DNA of 61,012 nucleotides, from positions 1-61,012 of the IMG/VR virus record IMGVR_UViG_3300025120_000004; one strand, 5' to 3'. A model generated the notes under the pieces. It worked only from the letters and a program-made list of their open reading frames with translations, had not been told where the DNA came from and made no database searches. Positions within the stretch are counted from its first letter, which is position 1. Each line of letters opens with the position of its first letter. Position numbers and translations under genes: made by a program. Source of the stretch: a virus. Below, in pieces: positions 17,746 to 22,199 of this stretch.

Positions 17746-17847
17746 TTACTTTTTAATAAATTCTTTTACTATTGTTACTATACAAAATAATAGTAATAAC
17801 ACTATCATTCCTGTGATAGTGTAGTCTGTAAATTGTGTTATTGACAT
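17746..17847 (-). CDS. 33-residue single-pass membrane protein
   Basis: ATG at 17847, TAA at 17746. The product is almost entirely one hydrophobic helix (GMIVLLLLFCIVTIV) flanked by a polar N-terminus and a KEFIKK end, so it should insert in the membrane with a basic tail inside. Tiny membrane proteins of early phage operons can modulate host membranes, but the function here is unknown. Confidence 0.5.
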   Translation of the reverse strand: MSITQFTDYTITGMIVLLLLFCIVTIVKEFIKK

Positions 17848-17989: not shown

Positions 17990-18020
17990 AAGCTTTAATT
18001 TAATTTGATTAATAATTCGT

Positions 18021-18052
18021 AAAGGAGGAGGGATTCGAACCCTCTCTCCTCT
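18021..18052 (-). ncRNA. tRNA T-arm/acceptor-like minihelix hairpin
   Basis: On the minus strand, AGAGGAG, one unpaired A, GAGGG, the seven-base loop TTCGAAT, CCCTC and CTCCTTT fold into a 5-bp T-stem stacked on a 7-bp acceptor-like stem (one G-T wobble). The loop matches a tRNA T-loop. No D-arm or anticodon arm can be placed, so it is not an ordinary tRNA. A second compound hairpin lies just upstream on the same strand (GGTTT/AAACC and TATCT/AGATA, 18058-18095). It could be a tRNA remnant, an attachment-site-like tRNA 3' end, or a tRNA-like structure ending a longer RNA. Confidence 0.5.
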
Positions 18053-18180
18053 CTTCTGGTTTTTATCTTTTCAGTCATTCTCAGATAGTCAAACCATACC
18101 CATAGACTTTCTAACCTTGTGCATTTGTTTCTTCCCATTTTCTGCTTTCTCGTTAGATACATTTTCTTTTTTAGCATACA

Positions 18181-18736
18181 TCTGCAAACTATACGATATA
18201 AAACAGGATTTAAAAATGTGCAAATTCCCTCGTATATTTGTTCGCAAATGTGCGTAGCTTGTCCCTTAAGACCGAAATCTCTACGCTAATAAGCCCACTA
18301 TTGGTATTATATAAAATAATAGTACCAACTTGTCAAGGAGCAAACGTATTGTCAGTACGCACCTCGCCTATTGAGTTTTTATTTTAAGTGGTTTAGAATT
18401 GAAATATTATAAGATAATACGTGTTTATCTTTGCCCTACAATTATACTATGTTTGTTCGTTCGCTTCTGATGTCGTAGCAATTTGCGTACGCAGTGGATC
18501 GGCTGTAATATAATACAGCACGTTATACCTTTGAAGGGGTTTCAATATTTCAAAATGTCAAGGAACAAAACCTATTGGAATTAAAATGAGACATTGCTAC
18601 AAATTAATTTTTATCCGTTGCGCCATACGGTCGCCATTATAGGTATTGAAATTTTAGTTTAAAGCCTTTGCACCAACGTCAAGGTATTTCAATAAGCAAA
18701 GGAAAGCAGTTTTAAAACGTGCTTAGGTTTACGCAA
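18181..18736. ncRNA. Gene-free region with dense secondary structure; candidate large non-coding RNA
   Basis: No convincing gene was found here in either direction. Inverted pairs include GCGTAG/CTACGC (18252, 18281), GTGCGTA/TACGCAC (18250, 18356), TTGGTA/TACCAA (18301, 18323) and GCTGTA/TACAGC (18502, 18514). A GTCAAGG core recurs at 18332, 18557 and 18678. Around the third core, TATTGAAAT (18644) pairs with ATTTCAATA (18686), and CCTTTGC (18665) pairs with GCAAAGG (18696). These pairs interleave as an H-type pseudoknot. A weaker version surrounds the second core (18530-18580). TAnnTTTG matches occur at 18233, 18426 and 18526 (plus) and TACGTTTG at 18348-18341 (minus), so the transcribed strand is undecided. 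Confidence 0.5.
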
Positions 18737-19159
18737 TTATTTTGCGCTTTCAACTTTTGCAAGTCTACCAACTGTTTGCAACAATAACCAATAGCTAAAT
18801 TTTATTTTAGGTTCACCCTTTATAAACTTTGCGCCTTTGCTTTTATCGGTATTCGCATTCTTAAATAATTCCCTTTCACTCGCAAGACTTACTATGTTTC
18901 GAATATTAGTTACTTTGCCAAAAGTGACATTTGTACCTTTGTTCGTATTATAATGGTTTATATATTCGTTTAAACCACTTTCGCCTTTGCCCTTTGCATA
19001 GCGTACTAAACCACTCATTGAAAACGTCTCTTCTTTCCATTGGTTATTCAATGCGCTTTTTAAAATTACGGACTTACTTTTTTTAGCTACTTTTTTAATA
19101 GCAACTTTTTTGCTTGTTACAACTTTTTTCACTGAATTTGTTTTAACTGAATTTTTCAT
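18737..19159 (-). CDS. Lys-rich basic protein at the head of the leftward block
   Basis: The preferred start is ATG at 19159, giving 140 residues. An upstream in-frame ATG at 19213 would overlap the promoter. The first 35 residues are a Lys/Val/Ser repeat-like basic tail (KKVAIKKVAKKSKS), followed by a compact domain (WKEETFSMSGLVRYAKGKGESG...). The tail recalls histone-H1-like or nucleoid proteins, suggesting DNA binding, but the family is unknown. It is the first leftward gene from the divergent control region and has a strong promoter, so it is probably early and well expressed. Confidence 0.65.
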   Translation of the reverse strand: MKNSVKTNSVKKVVTSKKVAIKKVAKKSKSVILKSALNNQWKEETFSMSGLVRYAKGKGESGLNEYINHYNTNKGTNVTFGKVTNIRNIVSLASERELFKNANTDKSKGAKFIKGEPKIKFSYWLLLQTVGRLAKVESAK

Positions 19160-19198: not shown

Positions 19199-19231
19199 CA
19201 AATATACAAACAAATAATTATATAAAACAAA
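19199..19231 (-). promoter_or_regulatory. Strong leftward Bacteroidetes-type promoter
   Basis: On the minus strand TTTG (19231-19228), 21 bases, then TATATTTG (19206-19199): both consensus boxes at accepted spacing. The start codon at 19159 is 39 bases downstream. This is the best-formed promoter seen in the leftward direction. Confidence 0.75.
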
Positions 19232-19499
19232 TAAATTATAAAAAATAAATAAATAAAATCATTGATCTTTTAAACGAGGTTTTAAAATTGAATAGTTAAA
19301 ATGTTGATTTTCAATAAGTTATGTAAAATTATTGAATACTGGATTTTGCAAAAAAAAATTTAAAATTATTTTTGTCTATTGTAAAAATTGAATAAAAAAC
19401 GATAAATAAATATATCTTTTTAGTATTAAAAAAGTTAAGTATTTGATAAAATTAAGGTGGTTATTACCTCTTATTTATGTTTACGTAAAACAAAAATAT
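19214..19499. other. AT-rich divergent intergenic region
   Basis: No gene is visible. The sequence is very A/T-rich with three loose copies of an AAAATT(ATT)GAATA motif (near 19285, 19327 and 19365) and poly-A/T runs. It separates the leftward and rightward transcription blocks and leads into the G-rich repeats at 19500. Confidence 0.6.
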
Positions 19500-19559
19500 A
19501 AGGGTGTAAGGGTGCAAGGTGTTAAGGGTGTAAGGGTGCAAGGTGCAAGGGTGCAAGGT
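19500..19559. repeat. G-rich tandem direct repeats (iteron-like) in divergent region
   Basis: A 22-bp unit built from AAGGGTG, TAAGGGTG and CAAGGTG steps occurs at 19500-19521 and 19524-19545, with a shortened third copy at 19547-19559. All guanine runs are on the plus strand (five GGG, several GG), so it could form a G-quadruplex. A downstream CACACCCCCCC (19601-19611) can pair with the GGGTGT steps. The position between divergent blocks suits an origin or control element. Confidence 0.75.
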
Positions 19560-20368: not shown

Positions 20369-21940
20369 ATGAATCCAAAAGAATTATCCTTCGACCAAGA
20401 AGGGAGAGACAAATTATTAAACGGTATAACTACAATTTCAAAAGCCGTTAAAAGTACATTAGGCCCACTAGGTAAGACTGTACTAATCGAATCACAGAAT
20501 CATACACATGGAATAACGGTAACTAAAGATGGAGTTACGGTTGCTAAGTCTATAGATTTAGAAGATGCGGTAGAGAATTTAGCTATACGTATGATGAAGG
20601 AGGCTGCTGAGAGGACTGCTACTTCTGCAGGTGACGGCACTACTACTGCGATTGTTTTAACGGAGGCTATTGTAAAGGAGGGTATGCGTGTTATAGAAAA
20701 AAATCCTGATATCAATACCACTGAATTAATACGAGACATAAATAGTATTACTGATGAATTAATAAAGTCATTAGGTAAGTCTTCTAAAAAGGTAACTGGG
20801 AAAACTTTGCGTGATGTAGCTACGATATCTGCTAACAACGATTCTGTTTTGGGTAAAATGATTGCTAGTGCTTACAAGGAATTGGGTAGAGATGGGGTTC
20901 TTACTGTAGAGAACAGTAAAACTGACGAGACTTATTATGAGGTAACAAAAGGAATTAAGATTGACAGAGGATACAGTTCTAAGTTATTTATCAATAATCA
21001 CAGAAACGATGAATGTATATTAGATGATGTTTATGTCCTGATGACTGATATGGAGATTACTAATATTCTTCAGATTGAAAATATATTAAAACCAATTATT
21101 AATCAGAATAAGAAATTACTGATTATCGGTAACTGCGCACAGAATGTAACTAATACATTAGCTGCCAATGTAGTTCAGAATAATTTAAAGCTTTGTAATA
21201 TTATACCACCATCGTTTGGATACAAGACTAATGAGCTTATGAGTGATATTGCTCTGGCAATAGGTGCGAAATATTTCAGTGAATCACAGGGAGATAACAT
21301 AGGTATGTTGACAATGAGTGATTTAGGTCATGCAGATAAGATTATAGTAGGAAAAGATAGTACTGTTATTATAAATGATGAGGAAAGTAGTAAGGATGCT
21401 AAGATTAGAATAGATGAATTGAAGGTTCAGAAGGATAATAACAAGGATAAGAAGGAAAGGGACTTTATTACTGAGCGTATTGCCCTGTTATCAGGTGCTG
21501 TAGGTGTAATATATGTAGGAGGAAACTCGGATGTAGAGCAAAAAGAGAAGTATGATAGGGTAGAAGATGCTGTTTGTGCAGTAAGATCGGCTATTGAAGA
21601 GGGGATTTTACCAGGCGGAGGCTTGGCTCTGGTAAGATGTGCAGAGAATTTAAGGGATGGACACGCTAATGACGTGTTATATTTAGGATTATTAGCTCCA
21701 TTTGAGCAAATATTAGTAAATGCAGGTGAAGATATAGCAAATGTAAGAGATAAAACGTGTAGTTGCTCTAAAGTTCCATATAATTACGGATATGATGTAA
21801 AAAACAAAGTATTTGGAGATATGTATAAGATGGGAGTTATAGATCCTGCAAAAGTTACAAAGAATGCACTAAAAAATGCAGTAAGTGTAGCGACAACAAT
21901 ACTAAGTACTAATGCAATAGTAACAATGAAAAGAAAATAA
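20369..21940 (+). CDS. groEL: Phage chaperonin GroEL (Cpn60)
   Basis: A 523-residue chaperonin, near the usual 540. The ATP site GDGTTT is at 88-93, STLGPLGKTV at 29-38 matches the N-terminal nucleotide contact, and the Asp of DRVEDA (residue 400) corresponds to catalytic Asp398 of E. coli GroEL. GGGLALVR follows at 417-424. Equatorial, intermediate and apical domains are all present. The flexible Gly-Gly-Met tail is absent: the protein ends AIVTMKRK. It probably folds phage proteins such as the capsid or the very large virion proteins. It is followed after one base by groES and has its own promoter. Phages encoding both chaperonin partners are uncommon. Confidence 0.95.
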   Translation: MNPKELSFDQEGRDKLLNGITTISKAVKSTLGPLGKTVLIESQNHTHGITVTKDGVTVAKSIDLEDAVENLAIRMMKEAAERTATSAGDGTTTAIVLTEAIVKEGMRVIEKNPDINTTELIRDINSITDELIKSLGKSSKKVTGKTLRDVATISANNDSVLGKMIASAYKELGRDGVLTVENSKTDETYYEVTKGIKIDRGYSSKLFINNHRNDECILDDVYVLMTDMEITNILQIENILKPIINQNKKLLIIGNCAQNVTNTLAANVVQNNLKLCNIIPPSFGYKTNELMSDIALAIGAKYFSESQGDNIGMLTMSDLGHADKIIVGKDSTVIINDEESSKDAKIRIDELKVQKDNNKDKKERDFITERIALLSGAVGVIYVGGNSDVEQKEKYDRVEDAVCAVRSAIEEGILPGGGLALVRCAENLRDGHANDVLYLGLLAPFEQILVNAGEDIANVRDKTCSCSKVPYNYGYDVKNKVFGDMYKMGVIDPAKVTKNALKNAVSVATTILSTNAIVTMKRK

Positions 21941-21941
21941 T

Positions 21942-22199
21942 ATGAAAGCAGTAGGAAAATACATTGTAATTACAGAAATTAAAGAACAACAAAAAACACA
22001 GTCAGGAATATTATTGACTTCAGATGATACAAACTTGCAAAGATACAAAAAAGGATTAATAGTTATTCCAGGCACTGATGTGTCCGTTGTATCAAAAGGT
22101 GACGCTATTTATTACGATAAAAACGCAGGTCATAAAATGATGTTAGAAGAAGAGGTGGTTACAATTATATCTGAAAGAGATATTGTAGTGGTACTATAG
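21942..22199 (+). CDS. groES: Phage co-chaperonin GroES (Cpn10)
   Basis: An 85-residue GroES, shorter than the usual 97. The mobile loop spans about 14-30, and SGILL (21-25) takes the place of the GroEL-binding Gly-Ile-Val-Leu tripeptide region. GD with YYDKNAGHK at 53-65 and a final SERDIVVVL strand match the fold. It forms the lid for the adjacent GroEL. Both are probably one operon because only one base separates them. Its stop overlaps the stop of the opposing winged-helix gene by 6 bp. Confidence 0.9.
   Translation: MKAVGKYIVITEIKEQQKTQSGILLTSDDTNLQRYKKGLIVIPGTDVSVVSKGDAIYYDKNAGHKMMLEEEVVTIISERDIVVVL

Follow-up and report, generated by a model that had tools for sequence, protein, structure and literature searches.

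What does a virus encode where it leaves a gap between its genes? The question is raised by one locus of a 61-kb virus record (all 61,012 nucleotides of which are hereafter called the window) from a Bacteroidetes virus. To the left of its GroEL/GroES genes (20369-22199) lies a block of small genes on the minus strand, and the gap that separates the minus-strand gene with its end at 18737 from the next genes holds no credible open reading frame (ORF). The initial annotation had described 18181-18736 as free of credible genes. This was borne out: overlapping ORFs span only 33-60 aa, most of them have a TTG or GTG start, most are at the left edge, and the single one compared with families had no match. 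It had also seen in this interval a large functional RNA, perhaps of a new family. From the comparison of sequences presented below, the gap most likely encodes a large folded RNA on the minus strand (Table 1). Compensatory changes in relatives speak for the functional RNA, whereas its strand, its extent and the meaning given to its repeated cores had to be revised. No strand had been assigned, and the features found point to the minus strand. The interval was too short at its low end: the conserved unit reaches to about 18020, and its strongest feature, a tRNA-like 3' end, lies outside 18181-18736.

Table 1. Positions of the proposed RNA, its parts and the associated elements in the window.
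Feature	Position	Strand	Remark
Putative promoter: -7-like element TATATTTG with TTTG 20-21 nt upstream	19199..19206	-	consensus match
Basic-protein gene, directly before the RNA	18737..19159	-	stop codon 18737-18739
Proposed large structured RNA	18020..18736	-	5' end not exact
Possible pseudoknot	18644..18702	-	between protein stop codon and boxA
boxA-like signal GTTCCTTGACATTTTG	18551..18566	-	14/16 to GTTCTTTGACATATTG
Helix CGAGG/CCTTG with inner GCGTA/TACGT	18334..18366	-	one double change, one unpaired cell (inner)
Helix GCGTAG/CTACGC with inner GTC/GAC	18252..18286	-	compensatory changes versus L014, L018
Hairpin TCTAAC/GTTAGA around conserved AATGGGAAGA and CAAG	18110..18157	-	compensatory changes versus L008, L027, L049
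tRNA-like 3' hairpin	18020..18052	-	acceptor/T-arm pairing, no broken pair in nine sequences

Counterparts of the gap in related contigs

Relatives were collected by a GroEL scan, which gave 58 loci (designated by L numbers). The gap has a counterpart within the same gene order in ten distinct contigs (L008, L012, L014, L016, L018, L020, L025, L027, L049 and L059) and in an eleventh, L028, where it is reached at the contig edge; L019 repeats L018 and is not a separate member. The homologous regions that the initial annotation had proposed to look for in related phages are thus found, in synteny, in 11 distinct contigs. On the minus strand, all counterparts present a basic-protein gene, 500-800 nt without genes, a terminal hairpin and then the next gene. 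L003 is 99.4% identical to the window over 5.3 kb, and in the interval compared base by base the differences cluster in the protein gene and at the 5' end of the gap. Searches in named phages returned no protein homologues, and their only DNA matches were to tRNA T-arms at 18.0 kb, and it was these that drew attention to the tRNA-like end. Beside groEL, no gap of such size is found in MW202828.1, the nearest annotated phage, and no counterpart in Elemovirus, also among the nearest annotated records. Profile scans of viral contigs for further members of types A and B, described below, retrieved no new ones.

Several other features were observed in the surroundings. Slightly downstream of the tRNA-like end, 17746-17847 (minus strand) encodes a 33-aa peptide with a single membrane span (MSITQFTDYTITGMIVLLLLFCIVTIVKEFIKK), and small membrane peptides of differing sequences also follow the hairpin in L008, L012, L035, L038, L043 and L047. 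Short G-rich tandem repeats (AAGGGTGC-like) are located between the divergent transcription units at 19499-19559; the corresponding site of L027 (9111-9189) carries other G-rich repeats, and further ones in other relatives are suggested by translated ORFs. Further along the minus strand, the protein encoded by 13894-14898 matches glutamine amidotransferase-type families N-terminally and gamma-glutamyl cyclotransferase in its C-terminal part.

Stems, repeated cores and compensatory changes

The gap is rich in perfect stems, as the initial annotation had noticed: 18181-18736 contains 29 stems of at least 7 bp, against a mean of 15.3 in shuffled sequences, and none of 100 shuffles reached 29. The threefold occurrence of the CCTTGAC/GTCAAGG core was likewise seen in none of 5000 shuffles. 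A reading of these three cores as one repeated structural motif is not supported. The middle copy (18558-18564) is part of the boxA-like signal, the copy at 18329-18335 is kept in two relatives and partly paired, a portion of it being taken into one of the helices listed in Table 1, and the copy at 18678-18684 has mutated even in L003, a contig of 99% identity. The pseudoknot described earlier is exact, with 18665-18671/18696-18702 (7 bp) interleaved with 18644-18652/18686-18694 (9 bp). It is only mildly unusual, because 71 of 2000 shuffles (3.6%) hold one as strong, and it belongs to the least conserved part of the gap; L014 may form another pseudoknot there. The weaker copy said to surround the second core was absent from a search for exact stems; pseudoknots at a looser threshold were not taken as evidence, as most shuffles reach that threshold. 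The alternative pairing of TTTCAATA (18540-18547) with TATTGAAA (18644-18651) is indeed complementary.

Compensatory changes, the test proposed for the stems, were looked for in three alignments of relatives (A4, A5 and A6), and changes on both sides of pairs were found in each. They are most pronounced in A4, the core of type B, where 6 of 9 pairs have changed on both sides, a count that none of 500 shuffles and none of the slid controls reached. A covariance model of this core matches only its own six source sequences and misses the window, so the type-B core is not universal. A5, which includes the window, has two such pairs out of six, and 38 of 500 shuffles do as well. The window's own type, A, consists of three divergent sequences (the window, L014 and L018, aligned in A6). 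Here 4 of 19 pairs are compensatory and 1 of 57 cells is unpaired, which beats shuffles moderately (16 of 500 reach it). Pair support in type A thus appears consistent but modest, and the strongest statistics come from the relatives. In the gap, folding is unremarkable for the plus strand (z = -0.92) and of moderate stability for the minus strand (z = -2.38). Over the whole unit, z is negative on the RNA strand in 12 of 12 members (-1.4 to -5.1), the reverse strand being often negative too. A 31-nt hairpin insertion (18301-18331) is present in the window RNA and missing in L014 and L018; it resembles (89% over 28 nt) 17768-17795, which belongs to the ORF of the small membrane peptide.

A tRNA-like hairpin at the 3' end

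The gap ends, in the window and eight relatives, with an acceptor and a T-arm carrying a TTCGAAT-type loop (TTCRANY), in which acceptor plus T-stem amount to about 12 bp (11 bp in L012); its form is that of a tRNA's upper half. In the window, the minus strand reads AGAGGAG-A-GAGGG-TTCGAAT-CCCTC-CTCCTTT-A from 18052 to 18020. The 7-bp acceptor AGAGGAG/CTCCTTT pairs 18046-18052 with 18021-18027 and is followed by a bulged A, the 5-bp T-stem GAGGG/CCCTC and the T-loop TTCGAAT, with an unpaired A at 18020. Among the nine sequences the pairs vary at 7 of 7 acceptor positions and 3 of 5 T-stem positions. Since acceptor pairing was one of the criteria by which the hairpin was found, the independent support lies in its fixed location, its T-loop and the Rfam tRNA score. 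When the loci were scanned on both strands, all complete matches (7/7 acceptor and 5/5 T-stem) fell in this slot and on this strand. The Rfam tRNA model gives the tRNA-like end of L020 31.3 bits, for a cut-off of 29, and that of L027 28.5 bits.

The spacing from acceptor to T-arm is 0-1 nt in the window, L008, L012, L014 and L028, and 14-32 nt in L016, L020, L025 and L027; the distant relatives L035, L039 and L047 have extra arms between the two. In L018, L049 and L059, a terminal hairpin of 11-12 bp and a CTA tail are retained, but the loop is another one and not a T-loop, so recognition as a tRNA cannot be universal. The next start codon is mostly found 18-46 nt past the hairpin, whatever the gene (31 nt in the window). 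This downstream gene is not the same in all relatives, whereas the tRNA-like end persists.

A boxA-like signal and a putative promoter

The middle core copy lies in an element that differs from the 16-mer GTTCTTTGACATATTG at 2 of 16 positions. Strong matches to this 16-mer are present in 6 of 12 members, 137-191 nt past the protein stop codon. Such matches arose in 0 of 1000 shuffles for the window, L012, L014, L016 and L027 and in 1 of 1000 for L018. The signal is marginal in L028 and L059 and not above chance in L008, L020, L025 and L049, and no boxA-like match was found on the other strand. L016 and L027 match at 16 of 16 positions; the 16-mer was in part derived from these two sequences, so their perfect scores are not independent, in contrast to the following result from rRNA loci. 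A scan of bacterial genomes for the 16-mer gave at least 121 matches in at least 119 stretches, mostly from Bacteroidetes among the matches listed. Forty-two of the 121 matches listed are located 275-877 nt downstream of the 3' end of a 16S rRNA on the same strand, i.e. in the 16S-23S spacer. The boxA of E. coli also occurs in that spacer. Because of this position and its likeness to E. coli boxA, we infer that the element in the window is a boxA.

Upstream of the basic-protein gene, a promoter-like pair is found that corresponds to the promoter consensus TTTG / TAnnTTTG. From 23.2 to 11.1 kb, the minus strand has no such pair other than this one at 19206, so the RNA would head the minus-strand operon. 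The distant relatives L035, L038, L039, L043 and L047 display a promoter-like element, then after 68-146 nt a boxA-like element, the RNA and a tRNA-like hairpin, without a protein gene in front of the RNA.

A basic protein linked to the RNA

The gene before the RNA encodes a protein of 140 aa with a disordered, lysine-rich N-terminus and a helical C-terminal domain. The upstream proteins of relatives share a lysine-rich, KTNSVKK-like N-terminus and differ in their C-terminal domains. The basic protein has one viral homologue, to which no name is assigned. It had no significant match in Pfam and none to an N-type PHROG, so that neither collection relates it to lambda N. The structural model of the type-A protein of the window is poor (mean pLDDT 58.6); that of a type-B protein (mean pLDDT 74.5) had no match in the PDB at E<=0.001. 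In L059, L016 and L027, an ORF located after the RNA, as the second gene past the tRNA-like end, begins with MRTRIRTNSVAKVV / MRKRIKTNSVTVVI, like the KTNSVKK N-terminus of the basic protein.

RNA similarity and protein similarity correlate between members (Spearman 0.77), and the partial correlation given GroEL similarity is 0.79 (0 of 5000 permutations). The type of basic protein tracks the type of RNA beyond GroEL relatedness. This link reveals a cassette and not binding, since linkage of neighbouring DNA (hitchhiking) would give the same pattern.

Comparison with known RNAs

The suggestion of a new family agrees with the Rfam covariance search, which matched no family of large RNA. At gathering score, no GOLLD/ROOL or tmRNA match was obtained in the window and eight relatives, and at E<=10 no large-RNA family matched 17.9-19.5 kb of the window. 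At E<=5 in L012, L020 and L027, the only relevant match was that of the tRNA model to the tRNA-like ends of L020 and L027. GOLLD and ROOL were rejected by these model tests in the window and its relatives. A tmRNA was rejected as well, ARAGORN detecting none in the window or 25 loci and Rfam none at gathering score, and so was a tRNA, for there is no cloverleaf with an anticodon arm and ARAGORN reported none. An attP site in a tRNA gene was discarded: the tRNA-like hairpin is not the 3' end of a tRNA gene, and the record has no tyrosine integrase, the integrase type searched for (no PF00589 match). The RNA of a type III toxin-antitoxin system was not retained as an explanation, given the lack of tandem repeats and a protein gene that precedes the RNA. 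A literature search, with subscription papers outside its scope, found no description of this RNA.

GOLLD and ROOL are phage-encoded RNAs of about 600-800 nt with many helices and pseudoknots, of unknown function, and with tRNAs nearby or inside (PMC12286853). The window RNA would likewise be phage-encoded, large and many-helixed with a tRNA-type element, and, as in GOLLD, one of its regions is less conserved than the other. It differs from both in that the tRNA-like hairpin forms its 3' end and that it has a boxA-like signal near the 5' end and a linked basic-protein gene. As proposed, it would thus fit in a loose class of large phage RNAs near tRNAs, with features that are absent from PMC12286853. 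With the bacterial rRNA operon it shares a promoter, a boxA, a long untranslated structured RNA and a tRNA-type element, down to the same 16-mer of Bacteroidetes spacers, although it is a phage gene and not ribosomal RNA. Like tmRNA, it carries a tRNA-like domain without anticodon on a non-coding body with possible pseudoknots, but the 5' strand of the acceptor adjoins the T-arm instead of being at the 5' end of the RNA. The lambda N/nut system resembles it in combining a small basic protein with a boxA-bearing RNA in an early operon, as linked types; here the RNA is much longer and has a tRNA-like tail, and no boxB was noticed.

What the gap may encode

The account that we favour, and consider just on the probable side, is that of an excised, large structured non-coding RNA of about 540-720 nt, encoded on the minus strand at about 18736-18020 at the head of an early operon. 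Its strand, extent, helices, boxA-like signal, tRNA-like hairpin and linkage with the protein type are supported by the sequences compared, and its transcription, processing and protein binding can be predicted from them. Host polymerase would start near 19.2 kb, as the match to the promoter consensus suggests, and read the basic-protein gene. The nascent boxA, if its consensus match is a guide, would recruit host NusB-S10 (binding reviewed in PMC10931766), and polymerase would then be protected from Rho along the long untranslated part, as happens in rRNA operons. The RNA would fold into its multi-helix structure. Judging from the anatomy, the tRNA-like hairpin, with its 12 bp of acceptor and T-stem, may be recognised by RNase P and/or RNase Z, which would give the RNA a defined 3' end and leave the downstream early mRNA with a short 5' leader. 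The same anatomy suggests that the basic protein encoded just upstream could bind the RNA. Taken together, antitermination signal, long untranslated structured RNA and tRNA-type processing signal resemble the transcription unit of a stable RNA.

The main rival, which we judge rather unlikely, is a cis-acting, nut-like antitermination leader for the long minus-strand early operon. The basic protein would be its N-like factor and the RNA would act while attached to the polymerase, without a stable product. The boxA fits this explanation, as does the fact that a single promoter-like pair precedes the minus-strand genes lying from 19.2 down to 11.1 kb. So does the variation of basic protein and RNA as linked types, since lambdoid N proteins and nut sites also vary in that manner. 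However, the RNA is about ten times the length of a nut site, antitermination needs neither compensatory structure throughout nor a tRNA-like tail, the boxA is undetected in four members and the protein matches no N family in the two collections. We find it less probable still that the gap consists of two structured untranslated regions, a 3' UTR belonging to the basic-protein gene and a 5' UTR belonging to the gene that follows, which would influence the stability or translation of these mRNAs and be processed at the tRNA-like hairpin. The gap does lie directly between two same-strand genes, and the closeness of the next start codon to the hairpin would suit such an arrangement, but its length and structure are beyond those of ordinary UTRs. 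Moreover, the tRNA-like end stays while the gene behind it changes identity between relatives, and the distant relatives have the boxA/tRNA-like arrangement without the protein gene.

A DNA element, i.e. a replication origin or a packaging or attachment site whose inverted repeats would be protein-binding sites or cruciforms, seems highly improbable. The many inverted repeats, the divergent, gene-poor neighbourhood and a folding z that differs little between the strands of several members would be compatible with it. Against this, the T-loop, the boxA and the promoter-like element all point along the minus strand, no boxA-like match exists on the other, no tyrosine integrase was found, and the acceptor 5' strand adjoins the T-arm, unlike in an attachment site within a tRNA gene.

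Going back to the excised RNA, we tentatively suggest, as a possible though doubtful extension, that it represents an undescribed class of phage ribonucleoprotein, with rRNA-type antitermination, a 3' end that is tRNA-like and might carry CCA or be charged, a dedicated basic protein, and several protein-RNA types that phages exchange as cassettes. Large structured phage RNAs such as GOLLD and ROOL are recurrent, occur near tRNAs and have no known function. The present unit would provide handles that these two lack: its tRNA-like 3' end predicts where the RNA is cut, its boxA-like signal how it is transcribed, and its linked protein type what binds it. Should the RNA be an antitermination leader, it would constitute an unusually elaborate nut-like system in Bacteroidetes, from which, to our knowledge, no nut-like system is known. 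If the module is a ribonucleoprotein that passes between phages as a cassette, phages would have a component of a new kind.
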